Assembly: GCA_017469275.1 (NCBI GenBank)
Contig: JAFUGT010000052.1
Coordinates: 1 to 40,581, forward strand
Length of the DNA stretch: 40,581 nt
Direction: 5' to 3'
DNA from: Lachnospiraceae bacterium
Lineage (GTDB): Bacteria; Bacillota; Clostridia; Lachnospirales; Lachnospiraceae
Under the pieces are notes generated by a model that was not told where the DNA came from, did no database searches, and saw only the letters and a list, made by a program, of their open reading frames with translations. The position numbers were made by a program, and so were the translations under genes. Each line of letters opens with the position of its first letter. Within the stretch, counting starts at the first letter, position 1. Below, piece by piece: positions 4,126 to 28,700 of this stretch.

Positions 4126-4842
4126 ATGATCAAACAAAATGACAACAAACTTGCCATATCGGTTGTTGCCACGCTCACTGCGGGAATTGCTTTAATCTAC
4201 ATACTCGTTGCTTATCCGCAGTTAATATTTGCAGTAGCGGGGGTAAGCGCAATATTCTTAATCTGTGCCTACATTTTAACCCAGAACATTATTGGCTTTA
4301 TTAATATGAAGAATAAGTCGTTAAATGTTCAGATCAAGAATGGTATGGATGACTTATCAAGCCAGATAGAGGGGATGAGCAGTGCTCAGGCGCAGCTTGG
4401 TAAAGCAACTTACCTCTACACAAGACAAACAGCTGAAAATGTTGCAACCCTTCGAGGCAACTATACCGACAGTCAGGCGGCTCTTCATAAGAATCTTTCG
4501 GTTCTGGCCAATGCACAGAGCAAATCCACCAAACTTCTTATAAAGTATGATCAAAGTAATACAACAAAACTTATCTCAACACTTAAAGACATCAAGAATC
4601 ATTTAAGTGACACATTCTCCCAAGGATTTGAGCAGATACCTCAGGCTGACAATGCTGATGTAGTCAATATGCTTGAATCAATCGTGGAATATCTGAAAAC
4701 ACAGCCTGAGAACATGGACCAGGCTTTAAGCATGCAGATTAATAATGTAGCTCACGAGTTACAGAATATTTCCATTAATATCAGCAAAATGCAGTCAGTG
4801 CCTATGCAGCCTTATATGCCTGTACAACAGATGACAATGTAG
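4126..4842 (+). CDS. Membrane-anchored coiled-coil protein, 5' part of a frame interrupted by TAG
   Basis: The 238-residue product has two adjacent hydrophobic helices (about residues 9-27 and 31-54) that anchor the N-terminus. A long heptad-rich cytoplasmic region follows (residues 60-225: MDDLSSQIEGMSSAQAQLGK, then LHKNLSVLANAQSKSTKLL, then ISINISKMQ), like the body of a chemoreceptor or scaffolding protein but with no recognised methylation or HAMP motif. It ends MQPYMPVQQMTM at TAG 4840-4842. The same reading frame then continues PVYQEMPQMQPVQP without any shift for another 381 codons, so this is best read as the front half of one roughly 620-residue protein. The stop differs by one base from CAG (Gln), which suits the Gln/Met-rich context. 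Other genes here end normally at TAG, so recoding is unlikely. The domain family is not recognised. Confidence 0.75.
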   Translation: MIKQNDNKLAISVVATLTAGIALIYILVAYPQLIFAVAGVSAIFLICAYILTQNIIGFINMKNKSLNVQIKNGMDDLSSQIEGMSSAQAQLGKATYLYTRQTAENVATLRGNYTDSQAALHKNLSVLANAQSKSTKLLIKYDQSNTTKLISTLKDIKNHLSDTFSQGFEQIPQADNADVVNMLESIVEYLKTQPENMDQALSMQINNVAHELQNISINISKMQSVPMQPYMPVQQMTM

Positions 4843-4857
4843 CCTGTTTATCAGGAG

Positions 4858-5985
4858 ATGCCACAAATGCAACCGGTACAGCCTGTACCTGCAGCTCCGG
4901 CAGTTGAACAACCTGTTGTTGAGACTTCGACAACACCAACGGTTGAAGCTGCTACTCCGGTAGCTGAGACTTCGACAACACCGGCGGTCGAGACTGCTGC
5001 TCCGGTGGCTGAGGCTCCGACAACACCAACAATTGAAGCTGCTGCTCCGATAGCTGAGACTCCGACAACACCAACGATTGAAGCTGCTGCTCCGGTGGCT
5101 GAGACTCCGACAACACCGGCAGTTGAGACTGCTGCACCTGCTCCCGAAGATAGTCTTCCGGGATTGACCACAGCAGATCTTGATGCTCTATATGCTGAAG
5201 CAGAACAGAACTTGGCAAGTGAAACTGCTCAGACACAGCCTACTGTAACAGAGACAAAAGCAGAACAACCCAAAACTGCTGAACCTATAGCAGAAACTGC
5301 AACCGAGCAGCCTAAAGCCGCTGAACCGGCTCCTGCTCCTGAACCTGTGCAAGTTGCTCCGGTTTCTGACGATCCTAACAAACAGTTATCTGCAGATGAG
5401 ATTGCTGCATTGTTCGCAGCCGCCGAGCCTGCCCCTAAGAAGGAAGAACCCGCTCCTGCTCCCGAACCTGTGCAAGTTGCTCCGGTCTCTGATGACCCTA
5501 ACAAACAATTGTCTCCCGATGAGATTGCTGCACTGTTTGCAGCCGCTGAGCCTGCTCCTAAGAAGGAAGAGACGGCACCTGATAATAATGCCGAAGAGGA
5601 AGCATTTACTCCTACCTTCACAGTAGTAGGTAAATCAGAACCTGAAGAAGTCAAAGAAGAACCGGTTACTCCTACCGTTGGTGATATGAGCGATCCTAAT
5701 AAACAATTATCTCCGGATGAAATTGCTGCCTTGTTCGCAGCCGCCGAGCCTGCTCCTAAGAAGGAGGAACCGGCTCCCGAACCTGTGCAAGTTGCTCCGG
5801 TTTCTGATGATCCTAACAAACAGTTATCTGCAGATGAGATTGCTGCACTGTTCGCAGCCGCTGAGCCTGCTCCTAAGAAAGAAGAACCCGCTCCCGAACC
5901 TGTACAAGTCACTCCGGTTTCTGACGATCCTAACAAGCAGTTATCTCCGGATGAGATTGCAGCTTTATTCGCATCAATCGGATAG
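4858..5985 (+). CDS. Pro/Ala/Glu-rich tail with five LS[AP]DEIAALFA motifs, 3' part of the interrupted frame
   Basis: This 375-codon stretch is in frame with the gene ending at 4842. It is of low complexity: five 15-residue Pro/Thr-rich units, a degenerate motif LTTADLDALYAEAE, then five copies of DPNKQLS[AP]DEIAALFA separated by acidic/proline linkers (PAPKKEEPAPEPVQVAPVS). The last copy ends the protein (ALFASIG). The motif resembles the N-terminal LSQxEIDALL segment of FliM and FliY, which in flagellar motors docks CheY-P; a tandem array of docking peptides is therefore my working idea. If the TAG at 4840 is real, this part could still be made by reinitiation: AGGAG lies nine bases before the ATG at 4867. 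The product would then be soluble, without its anchor. The stop TAG overlaps the ribosome site of the next gene. Confidence 0.7.
   Translation: MPQMQPVQPVPAAPAVEQPVVETSTTPTVEAATPVAETSTTPAVETAAPVAEAPTTPTIEAAAPIAETPTTPTIEAAAPVAETPTTPAVETAAPAPEDSLPGLTTADLDALYAEAEQNLASETAQTQPTVTETKAEQPKTAEPIAETATEQPKAAEPAPAPEPVQVAPVSDDPNKQLSADEIAALFAAAEPAPKKEEPAPAPEPVQVAPVSDDPNKQLSPDEIAALFAAAEPAPKKEETAPDNNAEEEAFTPTFTVVGKSEPEEVKEEPVTPTVGDMSDPNKQLSPDEIAALFAAAEPAPKKEEPAPEPVQVAPVSDDPNKQLSADEIAALFAAAEPAPKKEEPAPEPVQVTPVSDDPNKQLSPDEIAALFASIG
4912..5136 (+). repeat. Five 45-bp tandem units in the Pro/Thr-rich linker
   Basis: Units begin at 4912, 4957, 5002, 5047 and 5092 with an exact 45-base period. They encode variants of P[VI][AV]E[TA][SP]TTP[TA][VI]E[AT]A[AT]. 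They probably act as an extended spacer. Confidence 0.85.
5371..5985 (+). repeat. Five imperfect repeats encoding DPNKQLS[AP]DEIAALFA
   Basis: Copies start at 5371, 5494, 5692, 5809 and 5926. Spacing is 123, 198, 117 and 117 bases, always in frame. The motif is almost invariant, while third-base changes between copies show it is kept at protein level. A more distant sixth copy (LTTADLDALYAEAE) lies at about 5163-5204. Confidence 0.85.
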
Positions 5986-5994
5986 GAGGACCAC

Positions 5995-6384
5995 ATGGCA
6001 AATCAGGCACGAATCTTGCTGTTTAATATGAATAATGACCGGCAGCGCTCAATCGAGCGGCTATGCCGGTCTCTTTCTATTAAAACATCTTATATCAGAT
6101 CGACCTCATATCATGACACTCTTGGGTATCTGACAGGAATACAGGGATTTCCGAAAAAACCTGTAAGCCCCTCGGCATCCCCTGCCACATCAGAATTAGA
6201 ATCCGAAATGCTGGTATTTTCCGGCATGGACTCCGATGCCACAGACGCATTCTTAGCTGCTTTCAAAAATGCAGGACTTCCACCTATTGCTCTTAAAGCA
6301 ATACTTACTCCCACCAATGTATTCTGGACACCGATAAAACTATATGAGGAGCTTTGCAAGGAACATAAACTTTTACATCCGTAA
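5995..6384 (+). CDS. DUF3783 domain protein
   Basis: The protein has 129 residues. The C-terminal half (residues 72-129: MLVFSGMDSDATDAFLAAFK, then PIALKAILTPTNVFWTPIKL and YEELCKEH) carries the DUF3783 signature, in particular LKAILTPTN followed by W and a LYEEL helix. The N-terminal 70 residues (MANQARILLFNMNNDRQRSI...) resemble the start of a response-regulator-like alpha/beta fold but have no phospho-acceptor pocket that I can identify. No signal peptide is present. The start ATG has AGGAGG nine bases upstream, and this site overlaps the stop of the motif-array gene, so the two are coupled. The function of DUF3783 is unknown. Linkage suggests it works with the membrane-anchored motif-array protein. 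Confidence 0.8.
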   Translation: MANQARILLFNMNNDRQRSIERLCRSLSIKTSYIRSTSYHDTLGYLTGIQGFPKKPVSPSASPATSELESEMLVFSGMDSDATDAFLAAFKNAGLPPIALKAILTPTNVFWTPIKLYEELCKEHKLLHP

Positions 6385-22795: not shown

Positions 22796-25700
22796 TCACT
22801 CTACGACCTGTTTGCTGACATCCCCTATAGGTATCTCCAATGTGAAACTGTCTTTGCCGGCATCCATAGTTATTCTTAAACTATAATTTCCTTCTTTAAG
22901 CTCCTCAAACTGATATGTTCCAACACCGCCTGTAAATGGTGCTATACCTCTCTTACATTCCTCACCGTTCCTGTAAAGTATCAGATTCGCCATACCATCT
23001 ATGTCCTCATAACGGATATTGCCTGAAATATCATATACGGTATCGCCCTCTTCATTGACAGAGCTCTTAACAGTATATCCTATAGCATAAATCGAGAATT
23101 GATTCGTATAAATGTATACTTTCTTAGTAATCTTATCAACACGATATGTACCATCCTGTCTCGAATCACTCTCTGTAAGTCTTGTGGCAGATGAGCCGTG
23201 GTAACGATATGCGGCCAAACCTTCCTCGGATATATGATAGTAAGGTATACATATCTCAAGAATGTTAGTAGTTGTGTCCATAACCGTCTTGACAGAGTCC
23301 ACATCCTTTATCACCTTGATATCGAAGAAAGTGAGCATCCTACCTTCAGCTATATTCCTGATTGCCGTAATGCCATCTCCGCCTTCACTTCCCTCAGCCA
23401 CCTGTTCTACCGACATTGTGACATTAACGTCAGCAGACTCGCCTTCCTGTAAAGCTTTGGCTTCTTCATCCAATCCGTTAACACTTACTGACGGGGTTCC
23501 TTCCTTCACCTCCACCGATGAACTTGAAGTACCTTCCTTCTTCTCCTTGACAGTTACTTTGGCAGAACCGGTATAGGTGATATAATTGTCTGCCTCAACC
23601 TTAAAGTACACTGTAAGAGAACCTTCCTTAGTTATGGTAGGCGACTTCCTGCTGTCGTACTCACCTTTTTCCTTGCCGTATGTAATGGTGTAATCACTCT
23701 TAGGGTCAGTGACCTTGACTTCTATTCCATGCTCCTTCTCGTCATATTCAACACTCACATCTTTAGCCGTAACACTCATCTTCTTTTTGGCAATCTCCCA
23801 CTCACAAGAAGCGGTAGACTCGTCATCAGATAATTTGTAGTTGGCTGCTTTCTGACCTTCCACACCTGTAATCTTTGCAGTATATTTTCCGGCATTTTTC
23901 TTCTCATTATCCGAATATGTAAGTGTAAGAACATCATCATTTATCGTCTTTGCCTTAGCCGTAACGCTCTGCTTCTTTCCGTTGTAAGTCTTATCTGCAT
24001 CATCCCATGTAAATGTGAGCTTTTTGGGATTAACTTTCAACTTGCCGGAAACAAAAGTTATATCATAATTCTTAGCTGTTACGCCTTTAGGCGTAATTGA
24101 ATACGAGCTTCCCACATCTCCATATTGCTCATAATCGATATTATAAGAAAGCGTACCCTTCAGAACTTTCTTGGTCTCATCATTAACAAATCCCGAATAC
24201 TCAACTCCGTCATTATCAGGTTTATCGCCGTAGGTAATCGTAGCATCCTTGGCTGTCACTTTAAGGGGCACTTTGGTAATCTCTACCGTCTTGCTTCCCG
24301 ATATCGGGTCTATGGTATAACCCTTACATTGGACATAATAATATACCGTATATTTGCCTGCATCGGTAAATGTGAGCAGTTCTTTACTTCCGTCATCCTT
24401 GTAATTATCCTTACCAAGCTCTTTGGTACTATAATATACTGTCGCCTCCGGTGAATCACCATCGAATATTCCGATAAGCTCCCCTGATTCGCCTTCAAGC
24501 TCTTTAACTGTAATACCATGTGCCTTGCCGTCATATTTTCCCGAATAACCTGATACGGTTATTGACACTCCGCCCTTGGTGATGGTGTACTGTCCATCCT
24601 CTAAAGTGGCATCATAGTTAGGGTTCTCTTTCCAGCTTACCGTAATAGGGTAATCACCCGGCTCAGATTCTTTGGTTGCCGTTGTAGACAATGTAATTCC
24701 AAGATCATCATCTTCTACATAGCCGCCACCGATAGTATATGTTAATTCAGCTAACTCCTCATTATAAATGGTCGACTTATCATCTGCCATAATCGTAATG
24801 GCTGCAGGTTCAATAACAAAACTATTTTTTGCTTCACCTGCCGAATAATCGTCCGTTGCTGCAATGTTCGCCTTCACATACCAGGTTCCGGCATCCGTCG
24901 GAACAGTGTCAGAGTACTCTCCATTCTCTGAAGATGAATATGTATATGTGGCTGTGTCCGCTCCAAAATCGGCTGTCACCTTAGGCGCTTTTGCCTCTTC
25001 TCCGTATGTCCATCCATCAATATTAACCGTTACAATATTGGCATCCTCAGGAACAATCTTGAAGGTCAGCGTCTTTGCCGCATCCTCACTATCCGTCCAT
25101 TTATAATTAACCGCATCTTTAAGTGTAAGTACAACATCATAGCTTCCCACATCTGTTCCGCCATTATTAGTCGTAACGGTATATAAATCGCTCGCTTCCA
25201 CATCCGCTGTCTGAGCTTTACCTGTATAGTGTTTCTCGGTGATGGCAGGAGTCGTCACTTCCGCTTTGGAAATAACAAATGATGTCTTAACCTCACCTGC
25301 CGGATAGTTATCTGTTGCAGGAATGCTTGCCTTCACATACCAGGTTCCGGCATCTGCCGGAGCATCGGCTGAATACTCTCCATTCTCTGATGATGAATAT
25401 GTATATGTGGCAGTATCTGCGCCGAAATCGGCTGTTGCTGTCGGTGTCTTTGCTGCTTCTCCGTATGTCCAGCCTTCAATATCAACTGTTACGTTATTCG
25501 CTGTCGCAGTTACAATCTTAAATGTCAGTGTCTTTGCTGCTTCCTCGCTATCCGTCCATTTATAATTAACTGCATCTTTAAGTGTAAGTACAACATCATA
25601 GCTTCCCACATCTGTTCCGCCATTATTGGTCGTAACGGTATATAAGTCACTCGTCTCTACATCCGCTGTCTGTTTATCTCCTGTATAATTCTTATTCGCA

Positions 25701-28700
25701 ATGGTGGGAGACGTTACTTTCGCTTTTGCAATAACAAATGATGTAATATCCTCACCTGCCGGATAGTCCTCTGTCTCCGCAACACTTGCCTTCACATACC
25801 AGGTTCCGGCATCTGTCGGAACAGCGTCAGAATACTCTCCATTCTCTGATGATGAATATGTATATGTAGCGGTATCTGCACCGAAATCGGCTGTTGATGT
25901 CGGTGTCTTTGCTGCTTCTCCAAATGTCCAGCCTTCAATACTTACTGTTACGATATTGGCATCCTTAGGAACAATCTTAAATGTCAGCGTCTTTGCCGCA
26001 GCTTCGCTATCCGTCCATTTATAATTTGTCGTATCTTTAAGAGTCAGCACAACGTCATAACTGCCTACCTTCGTTCCACCGTTATTAGTCGTAACAGTAT
26101 ATAAATCACTTGCCTCTACATCCGCCGTCTGAGCTTCGCCTGTATAATGCTTATCCGTGATAGTTGGTGCGGTCACTTCCGCTTTGGTGATTGTAAATGA
26201 GGTCTTAGCCTCACCAGCCGGATAGTTTTCCGTTTCAGGAATACTTGCCTTCACATACCAGGTTCCGGCATCCGTCGGAGCATCGGCTGAATATTCTCCA
26301 TTCTCTGATGATGAATATGTATATGTGGCTGTATCTGCGCCGAAATCGGCTGTTGATGTCGGTGTCTTTGCATCTTTGCCATATGTCCAGCCTGCGATAC
26401 TTACTGTTACGTTATTCGCAGTCGCAGCAATTATATTGAATTTCAGCGTCTTTGCCGCATCCTCGCTATCCGTCCATTTATAATTTACTGCATCCTTAAG
26501 TGTAAGTACAACATCATAATCTCCGACATCTGTTCCGCCGGCATTAGTTGTAACGGTATACAAATTGCTCGTCTCAACATCCGCTGTCTGAGCTTCGCCT
26601 GTATAATGCTTATCCGTGATAGTTGGTGCGGTCACTTCCGCTTTGGTGATTGTAAAGTCAGCCGTTGCTTCACCACCAAGATAGTTATCCGTCTCAGCAA
26701 CCACAGCTTTAACAGTATATTCACCTGCATTCGAAGGAACCGTTCCAGTAAAATCTGTTGTATCTTTCTTTGCATATGTGTATGCCACTTCGCCATTACC
26801 GGTGTTACCGTTTACACTCGGTATACTTGCAGTTTCCCCATATGTCCAGTCTGAAATACTGACAGTTGGCGTAATTGAGGTCTTCTGAGCGTAGGTATAT
26901 GTGTAGGTGGTATCCTCCCAAATCGTTGTACTTGAGTCCGGCACTATGTCCCAGCTACCTTCTATGAAGTCTGCATCGGGCTTATCTCCTACGGGTGGAA
27001 TATCGCTGCTTGAAAGAGCTGAAGTACCGACTTCCAGATTGACAGTTTTTGGAGCTTTTGTGCCATCTCCCCAAGAACCATTTTCTACTTTAAATGTTAT
27101 TGTCCTTTCCTTATTAGGTTCAGTTATAAATTTCCCTTTTTCTAAAGTAATATTGTAGTTATCTCTGTTAATGTAATTGTTTTCACCAGCTTTGATTACC
27201 GCAGTATCCGCACCGAGCCACACCTCTTTAGTCATTGAATCATAATAACGTGTTACCGACTCGAGCGTGTGCCCCTCACACAGACCTGTCACGGTCACAG
27301 ACTCCATCCCAACTTGCTCACTGCTCGGCGGTATATAGTTAACATCTTCCGCCTTGATGGTGAGATCTTTTTTTGCTATGGTGACAGGCACATTTTTTTT
27401 ATCGATTTCCGAATCATCATCACCCACAACCTTATACCATACATAATAGGTGCCGGAGTCAATTCCGGTAGGGATGGATGAGTCATAAGCCTGAGGTTCG
27501 ACATTTTCGTTTCCAAGTGCGTACTGTATGGAACCACTCTCGACTTCACCTGCGCTCACAAGCTGCTGTGCAGCCCCGGTGTAGATCAGATTATTTATAG
27601 CCGCAGGAATTGTCTTTATAATTGACGCTCTATTTATAGTGATCTCCTGTAAATCGGATGCAAGTACTGTACCGTCCGGTTTCGTGCGGAAATAGTAAGT
27701 CCCCGCATCAAGCTCTATATCTCCCGAACCGACATCCGTCCATGTGGAATTATCACTGCTTTGCTGATATCCGTCAGATGGAATTGTGACCTTACCCTTT
27801 CCGCCGACAGAGGTAGGATCTACTGACGTAAGCGTCGGTGTAGTACCTTTTGTGACACTTATGCCCTGAGTCTGGTTTCCCTCTATGTCATCAGAGGGAT
27901 TAGTTATTGTGCTGCTCGGTTTAAATACTTTTATACCATTTTCAGAGGATATGCCTGTATCAATATCGACACTGTTTTTACCATCCTCAATTGTAACCCA
28001 GCTACTACCTTTATCCAGACTGTATTGCATTCCACCTTCCACATTTGAAAGTATACCACTGTCTGAACCGGTAGCTGTGAAGGATGCATCGGGCTTTGTT
28101 GAATCTGAATCATTAGCATTAACAGTAACATTAAAACAGTCCCCTGAATAATTATAAATCGCCTGACCACTTCCCGTCTTAGTGCCAAATATATATATAT
28201 ATCGTGTATTTGTGGGTGTATTTATTTCGTTACTTTTCGCCCTGTCACTGTACATACTAAAACAACTATCAGTAGTAGGGTATGGAAGCCAACTTGGATA
28301 ATTTTCATTTTCAGCATCCACTTCCACAGTCTCGCCGACTTTTAATGTCAGACCACCGGTTTTTATGTCAGACAGTTTAACTTCTGTAACATCGTCTTTC
28401 GGTGTGATTATCCCTTCATTTTTATCAAACGAGATTTTATCCAAGTTTAGCTTGACTATCGGGTTTACCGTATATTCCAAACCTATCATTTCACTACTAG
28501 ATTTCTCTACTACTTCACCCTCACTAATAAAAACACACGTATCTTCTTCCGGTTTTAGCCAAAATTTTACATTAGTCTTATTCCATACTTCTTTCACCGA
28601 AGCATCGACATTTTCTGCTTCGGATTTACTCATCAGGCATACGCCATCAGTAATTCCACCAGCCACAACATCATCAATAGTATCTATTCCAGCATAATTA

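Follow-up and report, generated by a model that had tools for sequence, protein, structure and literature searches.

What is a row of near-identical acidic peptides doing behind a membrane anchor? The question is raised by a locus in a 40,581-nucleotide stretch of Lachnospiraceae bacterium DNA (the window), where an open reading frame on the forward strand encodes five copies of a peptide resembling the CheY-docking N-terminus of the flagellar switch proteins FliM and FliY. The original prediction was that the array gathers a response-regulator-like partner on a non-flagellar scaffold. Here we describe the locus, its relatives in the genus and family, and the partners that the array could have.

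The array and its anchor

The array ORF (4858-5985, plus strand, 375 aa) consists of a Pro/Glu/Ala-rich linker and the motif array. Five copies of DPNKQLS[AP]DEIAALFA span positions 5371-5973 on the plus strand, as had been proposed. Copies 1 (5371-5418) and 4 (5809-5856) read DPNKQLSADEIAALFA, and copies 2 (5494-5541), 3 (5692-5739) and 5 (5926-5973) read DPNKQLSPDEIAALFA. The fifth copy is followed by SIG, the final three residues of the protein. The protein motif is near-invariant, with a residue change at one position (A/P), and silent variation between the five copies was observed at 10 of the 16 codons. Across the 10 copy pairs, codon differences were synonymous in 51 cases and non-synonymous in 6, which bears out the silent divergence described earlier. 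A degenerate sixth motif had also been announced, within 5371-5985. It exists (LPGLTTADLDALYAEAEQN, FliM-like with an LDAL core), but it lies outside that interval, at 5155-5211 on the plus strand; comparable sequences are LTEADMDALLNAA in locus L012 and MTIDDIDALLNE in L025. A second conserved peptide, EAFTPTFTVVGKS (5599-5637, plus strand; genus consensus FTPTFTVVGKS), is positioned between copies 2 and 3. Tandem Repeats Finder detected a 45-bp tandem repeat with 4.8 copies within the linker (4920-5135, plus strand). The Pro/Glu/Ala-rich composition agrees with the predicted disorder of the linker, and it is on this composition that the word "disordered" is based. In this genome, the array peptide was found in this protein alone; the assembly comprises 182 contigs and is incomplete (82.6% complete). 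Elsewhere in the window, a large unit of 459 bp is repeated in tandem about four times at positions 24834-26867.

The anchor ORF (4126-4842, plus strand, 238 aa) lies upstream in the same frame. It encodes an N-terminal hairpin of two transmembrane (TM) segments and a long helical, coiled-coil-like region, and it ends at an in-frame TAG (4840-4842, plus strand) which separates the anchor from the array. AlphaFold2 modelled helices at residues 2-29 and 34-140 of the anchor region with a mean pLDDT of 59, and values of about 80 were limited to residues 11-60, the TM hairpin. The array had been assigned to a membrane-anchored protein. Anchor and array are indeed in frame, but the TAG splits them into two ORFs here. 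The frames of relatives are unbroken. The anchor domain is present in 24 of 26 genomes of the genus, and since the other 23 carry open frames of 397-588 residues with no inner stop, the TAG is a feature of this genome or assembly alone. The 19 relatives that could be read whole have anchor and array in a single frame. L025 is cut at the 5' end and L005, L023 and L024 at the 3' end, and each retains anchor sequence and at least one motif. Genus relatives carry two to five motif copies by regex, and the contig-end-cut L005, L023 and L024 show one. Within 4840-4872 of the window the TAG is followed by AGGAG and ATG codons, which could restart a soluble array protein.

The two window ORFs showed no match to the FliM middle domain (PF02154) at E<=1, no match to CheZ in Pfam or NCBIfam at E<=1, and neither the CheW nor the receiver domain of CheV in Pfam. 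When the 22-residue C-terminal peptide was compared with solved structures by phmmer, the six matches (HeliScrew4, DnaK entries and PP507) included no FliM or CheZ chain. A phage origin was rejected, with no PHROGs match at E<=0.01 for the array ORF, its relative L003 or the class B protein of this genome (L134; see below); the anchor ORF matched phrog_8145 only (0.0017). A defence origin was rejected as well, with no PADLOC match at E<=0.01 for the three proteins scanned. The DUF3783 gene downstream of the array (5995-6384, plus strand; PF12646, 2.4e-21) had been put forward as a partner, an idea that we abandoned. Its homologues occur in 73 of 150 family genomes, yet a regex scan, in which several loci were short, found it next to the array at 3 of the 24 loci in the genus, so this neighbour is not conserved.

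Two classes of motif carriers

The idea would have been refuted by a motif confined to this one protein. However, we found motif matches at E<=0.05 in 62 of 299 Lachnospiraceae genomes, a set holding one genome per genus with one exception. Some of the weak matches (E 0.027-0.033, in 624-638-residue frames of G039, G066:C40, G133, G207, G294 and G298) may be due to chance. Among 291 genomes of the class, whose family share is not shown, three had the motif at E<=0.005 and all three were Lachnospiraceae. The relatives, gathered from 78 loci, come mostly from Lachnospiraceae, Clostridium or clostridial MAG records, with a few others. L169 (Bacteroidales bacterium) and L207 (Bacteroides sp.) carry Lachnospiraceae-type genes and are probably mislabelled MAGs.

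The loci yielded 103 distinct motif ORFs when those with identical last 60 residues were counted once. The carriers are mainly of two kinds. Class A, the kind of the protein described here, accounts for most of them and has a TM hairpin, a helical region, a Pro/Glu linker and motifs reaching as far as the C-terminus. Class A counts refer to the 71 of the 103 ORFs with an N-terminal TM segment by hydropathy and an uncut 3' end. Two TM segments were seen by hydropathy in 69 of the 71; in 67 the last strict motif lies no more than 7 residues from the C-terminus, and the other four end in a motif variant. An alignment of 29 class A cores puts those of different genera at 13-23% identity to L003, with a single Lys invariant and two further positions almost so. 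Between genera the motif persists while the linkers diverge: information content is 0.9-2.1 bits in the linker columns ahead of the last motif and 3.4-4.3 bits across the motif from D to A, apart from Q (2.3), a conservation that is partly selection because the ORFs were picked by the motif regex.

Not every class A protein carries the strict motif. G009, G131 and G205 each have a form of 188-199 residues without the motif and a motif-bearing copy elsewhere, and in G152, G191, G289 and G296 the sole class A match is a motif-free short form of shorter or similar length. The anchor thus does not need the array. A single C-terminal motif ends a 191-residue form in G278 and a 270-residue form in G242, and the terminal motifs have diverged in G147, G168 and G266. 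Altogether, 10 of 45 class A genomes lack a motif match: the C-terminal motif has diverged in five, the protein is cut in one, and four are motif-free. Two motif proteins of about 970 residues (L184 and L206) begin with an N-terminal CxxC zinc-ribbon-like segment and have a class B-like end.

Class A genes sit near parAB-like genes in many genera, outside flagellar operons. Of 20 regions surrounding class A domains, 13 had a parA- or parB-like gene in view, and a DUF3881 gene and an exonuclease-like gene are often there too. DUF3881 was confirmed by Pfam on L096; the names of parA/parB-, exonuclease- and HisH/HisF-like genes were assigned by eye. In G178 a CheC gene (PF04509, 1.4e-29, with CheX also above the cut-off) directly precedes the class A gene, which is cut by the contig end ahead of any array. 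A regex scan of the loci holding a motif ORF found no CheC gene. MCP genes were found by regex near motif carriers in three loci (L018, L085 and L173), which is too few to use.

Class B proteins have a FliM-like N-terminal peptide, a linker, one TM segment and a conserved C-terminal domain. We saw no anchor domain common to both classes. Class B genes usually lie near cheV. In 16 of 20 cheV regions, that of this genome (L134) included, class B adjoins cheV or is within two genes of it, often without the strict array motif. As for the other four regions, L135, L136 and L152 stop at a contig edge, and L151 has no class B gene there and the domain elsewhere in its genome. Starting from motif matches instead, the motif protein was zero to two genes from cheV in nine of 20 regions, and in a tenth (L081) the contig ends before the cheV-neighbour position. 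The CheW and receiver domains of the cheV product near class B were confirmed in L083 and L134. HisH- and HisF-like genes come after the cheV and class B genes. A further gene often lies between cheV and class B (L083 8516-9382 and its equivalents); it has VLVGLGEEW near its start and gave no Pfam match at 0.1 and no PADLOC match. The conserved C-terminal domain of class B looks like TPR and has no Pfam name, and an acidic LPEEEE-like tail follows it in L139, L140, L145, L146, L149, L085 and others.

Flagellated genomes and FliM-like peptides

The motif is found alongside the flagellar switch. FliM is present in 42 of 42 genomes with the motif at E<=0.005, compared with 109 of 257 others (p 2e-14), and in 54 of the 62 motif genomes at E<=0.05; the best E values of the eight FliM-less genomes run from 0.0069 to 0.042 and these matches may be chance. 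Class A genomes, with the domain below 1e-9, have FliM in 45 of 45 cases against 106 of 254 others; at E<=0.001, the tool's own threshold, the count is 50 of 53. Class B is present in 117 of the 126 genomes whose FliM is of the main type and in 4 of the 173 others, and 117 of 121 class B genomes have FliM. The main type was defined by separating 25 weaker-scoring genomes by hand, and the genome lists for these tests were also transcribed by hand. The E<=0.005 and 1e-9 cuts, the split of FliM types and the FliM-like patterns used below were chosen post hoc, and the Fisher p-values are overstated because genomes share ancestry. In the genus, FliM was found in 24 of 26 genomes and in 23 of the 24 with class A; G012 has class A without detected FliM and G007 has FliM without class A. 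This assembly (G000) has three FliM matches (contigs C65, C86 and C97), compared with one apiece in the 23 other genomes of the genus that have FliM, so it holds either several flagellar clusters or mixed strains.

Class A went undetected in 81 of the 126 main-FliM-type genomes, by a profile which was built from motif carriers and may miss divergent members. It is therefore dispensable for flagella. The description of the array as a non-flagellar scaffold holds in that the protein is not a motor part, but it hardly occurs outside flagellated genomes.

LSQxEIDxLL has been published as the consensus for CheY binding (PMC5677366). The array sequence LS[AP]DEIAALF has its L, S, E, I and L, which upholds the proposed FliM/FliY resemblance; the strict consensus is not reached, with five of eight fixed residues matching. 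In this genome FliM begins with MADVLSQSEIDTLL and FliY with MDGLSQEEIDALL / MDGMLSQEEINALL, and 58 FliM/FliY N-termini from 30 other FliM loci look alike. The array motif scores 11.9 on a PSSM of these 58 N-termini, and 15 of 243,240 10-mers from genes untagged as carriers score as much or more. That background came from motif-chosen loci and some of its genes do carry the motif: the best eleven untagged rows include eight from class B (one protein twice), two of which, L203 and L222, carry an array-like motif.

FliM-like motifs elsewhere in both classes come closer to LSQxEIDxLL than the array does. Most of the 24 class B starts listed resemble FliM (xEEYLDSLL and variants). The pattern [DEQ][ILMV][DN]x[LM][LMF] gave 16 motifs in 13 of 23 class B linkers, against a mean of 1.0 and a maximum of 5 in shuffled linkers, and the reversed pattern matched once; this count omits L082 (dominating repeats; 24 with it) and L081 and L089 (cut or masked). 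The class B protein of this genome has no FliM-like motif beyond its N-terminus. Class A linkers gave 7 matches to the pattern, spread over 6 of the 71 proteins (shuffled mean 0.39, maximum 3), for example ISDDEINALL in L216 and FNQDDIDSLL in L183, the latter comparable to ILNQDEIDSLLG of Caulobacter FliM in the available part of PMC5677366. The class B protein of G260 combines many LPQEEMDALL repeats (one of them LSQEEMDALL) with repeats of DPNHVMTPEEIAAM. The class B protein at L082 6240-11216 has 1659 residues and holds two separate repeat families, the FliM-like LPQEEMDALL and DPNHVMTPEEIAAM. The most motif matches in one frame, 13, belong to the class B protein of G125.

The array and the FliM peptide are both short, acidic, at a flexible end and found in the same genomes, this one included. 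They differ in that the array is tandem, is on a membrane-anchored protein without a FliM domain and has an extra conserved DPNK leader; it also replaces Asp by Ala, the last Leu by Phe and Gln by Ala/Pro. With the Bacillus-type FliY peptide LSQDEINALL, the array has LS.DEI.AL in common. CheC/FliM-like and FliN-like domains are fused in FliY; the array protein has neither, though in a single genome (G178) the adjacent gene encodes CheC. CheZ is laid out similarly to class A, with a helical body, a linker and a peptide at the very C-terminus. Unlike CheZ, the array protein is membrane-anchored, has many peptide copies and gives no CheZ domain match.

Candidate partners of the array

Published work indicates which partner such a peptide could have. 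CheZ and FliM bind a common face of CheY (PMC3774744). The N-terminal helix and loop of FliM are contacted by alpha4-beta5-alpha5 of CheY (PMC11528121), and an N-terminal CheY-binding motif is present in B. subtilis FliY (PMC8809382). The Cle proteins of Caulobacter show that CheY-like receivers beyond classic CheY can read LSQxEIDxLL (PMC5677366). The Cle system varies the receiver; here the peptide carrier varies.

We consider it somewhat better than an even bet that the array is linked to chemotaxis and offers a CheY-type receiver a multivalent set of docking sites anchored at the membrane. The two-helix hairpin would anchor the protein at the membrane and the helical stem would probably oligomerise it, so that a long flexible linker could display several peptides of the FliM/FliY/CheZ kind. 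For the CheY and CheV receivers of this organism, the candidate docking peptide is VSDDPNKQLSPDEIAALFASIG. By analogy, each copy would fold as a short helix on alpha4-beta5-alpha5 of a phosphorylated CheY-type receiver, be it CheY itself or the receiver part of CheV. A chain with several copies would compete with FliM/FliY for the receiver and raise its concentration at the membrane, and it is proposed that the signal is thereby buffered, scaffolded or terminated. Such docking probably serves one of these three ends for CheY~P or CheV~P. We infer receiver binding, the choice of receiver, its dependence on phosphorylation and an effect on swimming. We rejected the idea that the array is specific for CheV, since within FliM-positive genomes the motif and CheV are not associated (37/42 versus 96/109, p=1); CheY is thus no less likely than CheV to be the partner. 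No CheY gene was found by regex scan across the 30 FliM loci, and this genome contains 51 receiver-domain matches. Among these, matches of about 121-125 residues on contigs C97 and C86, where FliM is found too, are its CheY candidates. The CheC neighbour in G178 fits signal termination, as a single case.

The partner could also be something else. In Caulobacter FliM, a double change of Ile-Asp to Trp-Ala abolishes binding (PMC5677366, available text), so the Ala that the array has in place of Asp/Asn may change or weaken receiver binding, and another partner is possible. The array could then be a flagellar or chemotaxis docking peptide for a C-ring or pole protein, or for a dedicated adaptor that reads DPNKxLSxDEIAALFA. 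This is a serious possibility, if on balance unlikely. It would account for a peptide which is longer than the FliM motif and partly different (the DPNK leader, Ala for Asp/Asn and Phe for Leu), and for the G260 class B protein, where LPQEEMDALL and DPNHVMTPEEIAAM repeats stand side by side as if they had separate jobs. The occurrence of FliM-like and array forms together in the same proteins speaks against this reading. We think it improbable that class A is a membrane scaffold belonging to the parAB neighbourhood and linked to polarity or the chromosome, its overlap with flagella being shared ancestry only. The parA- or parB-like genes, named by eye in 13 of 20 regions, and the motif-free short forms in such neighbourhoods would fit, but FliM was present in every class A genome below 1e-9, and class B carries the same motif with no shared anchor domain seen.

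Two further readings concern the repeats themselves. Copies that arose by repeat expansion, have no binding role and are kept alike by gene conversion would be in keeping with the tandem repeat in another part of the linker. This we regard as very unlikely, since 10 of 16 codons show silent differences among the copies and the motif is retained across genera whose linkers diverge. It is scarcely credible that the repeats are prokaryotic ubiquitin-like modules, despite a Prok_Ub score (PF14454) of 38.6 bits against a cut-off of 25 for the array ORF and scores above the cut-off for L003, L012, L093 and L095. The match covers 18-23 of the 64 profile positions (15-37 only in the array ORF), 0 or 1 stretch passes alone, and the score is a sum over repeats of one short peptide; this coverage led us to reject the identity. 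As the cut-off is passed, 4858-5985 and its relatives may be annotated as ubiquitin-like.

Returning to receiver docking, class A would modulate motility rather than build it, given the 81 of 126 main-FliM-type genomes without a detectable copy. Class A and class B together may bind phosphorylated receivers with avidity and so buffer or redirect the signal. As a wider and more tentative proposal, which we hold at somewhat less than an even chance, flagellated Lachnospiraceae would possess an extra layer of chemotaxis in which class A and class B scaffolds hold CheY~P or CheV~P off the motor, as a tunable sink, an adaptation hub or a second output. No open-access paper was found that prints the motif strings or describes such arrays, in agreement with the original prediction, which knew of none; subscription papers fall mostly outside that search. 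If the proposal is true, the meeting of CheY~P with the motor would not be the sole output of chemotaxis, and a membrane array would compete for the messenger in a major family of gut bacteria. Two membrane protein families without a Pfam name would gain a concrete role, and the conserved cheV neighbour would be explained. The arrays would then be a natural example of multivalent control over a diffusible signal.
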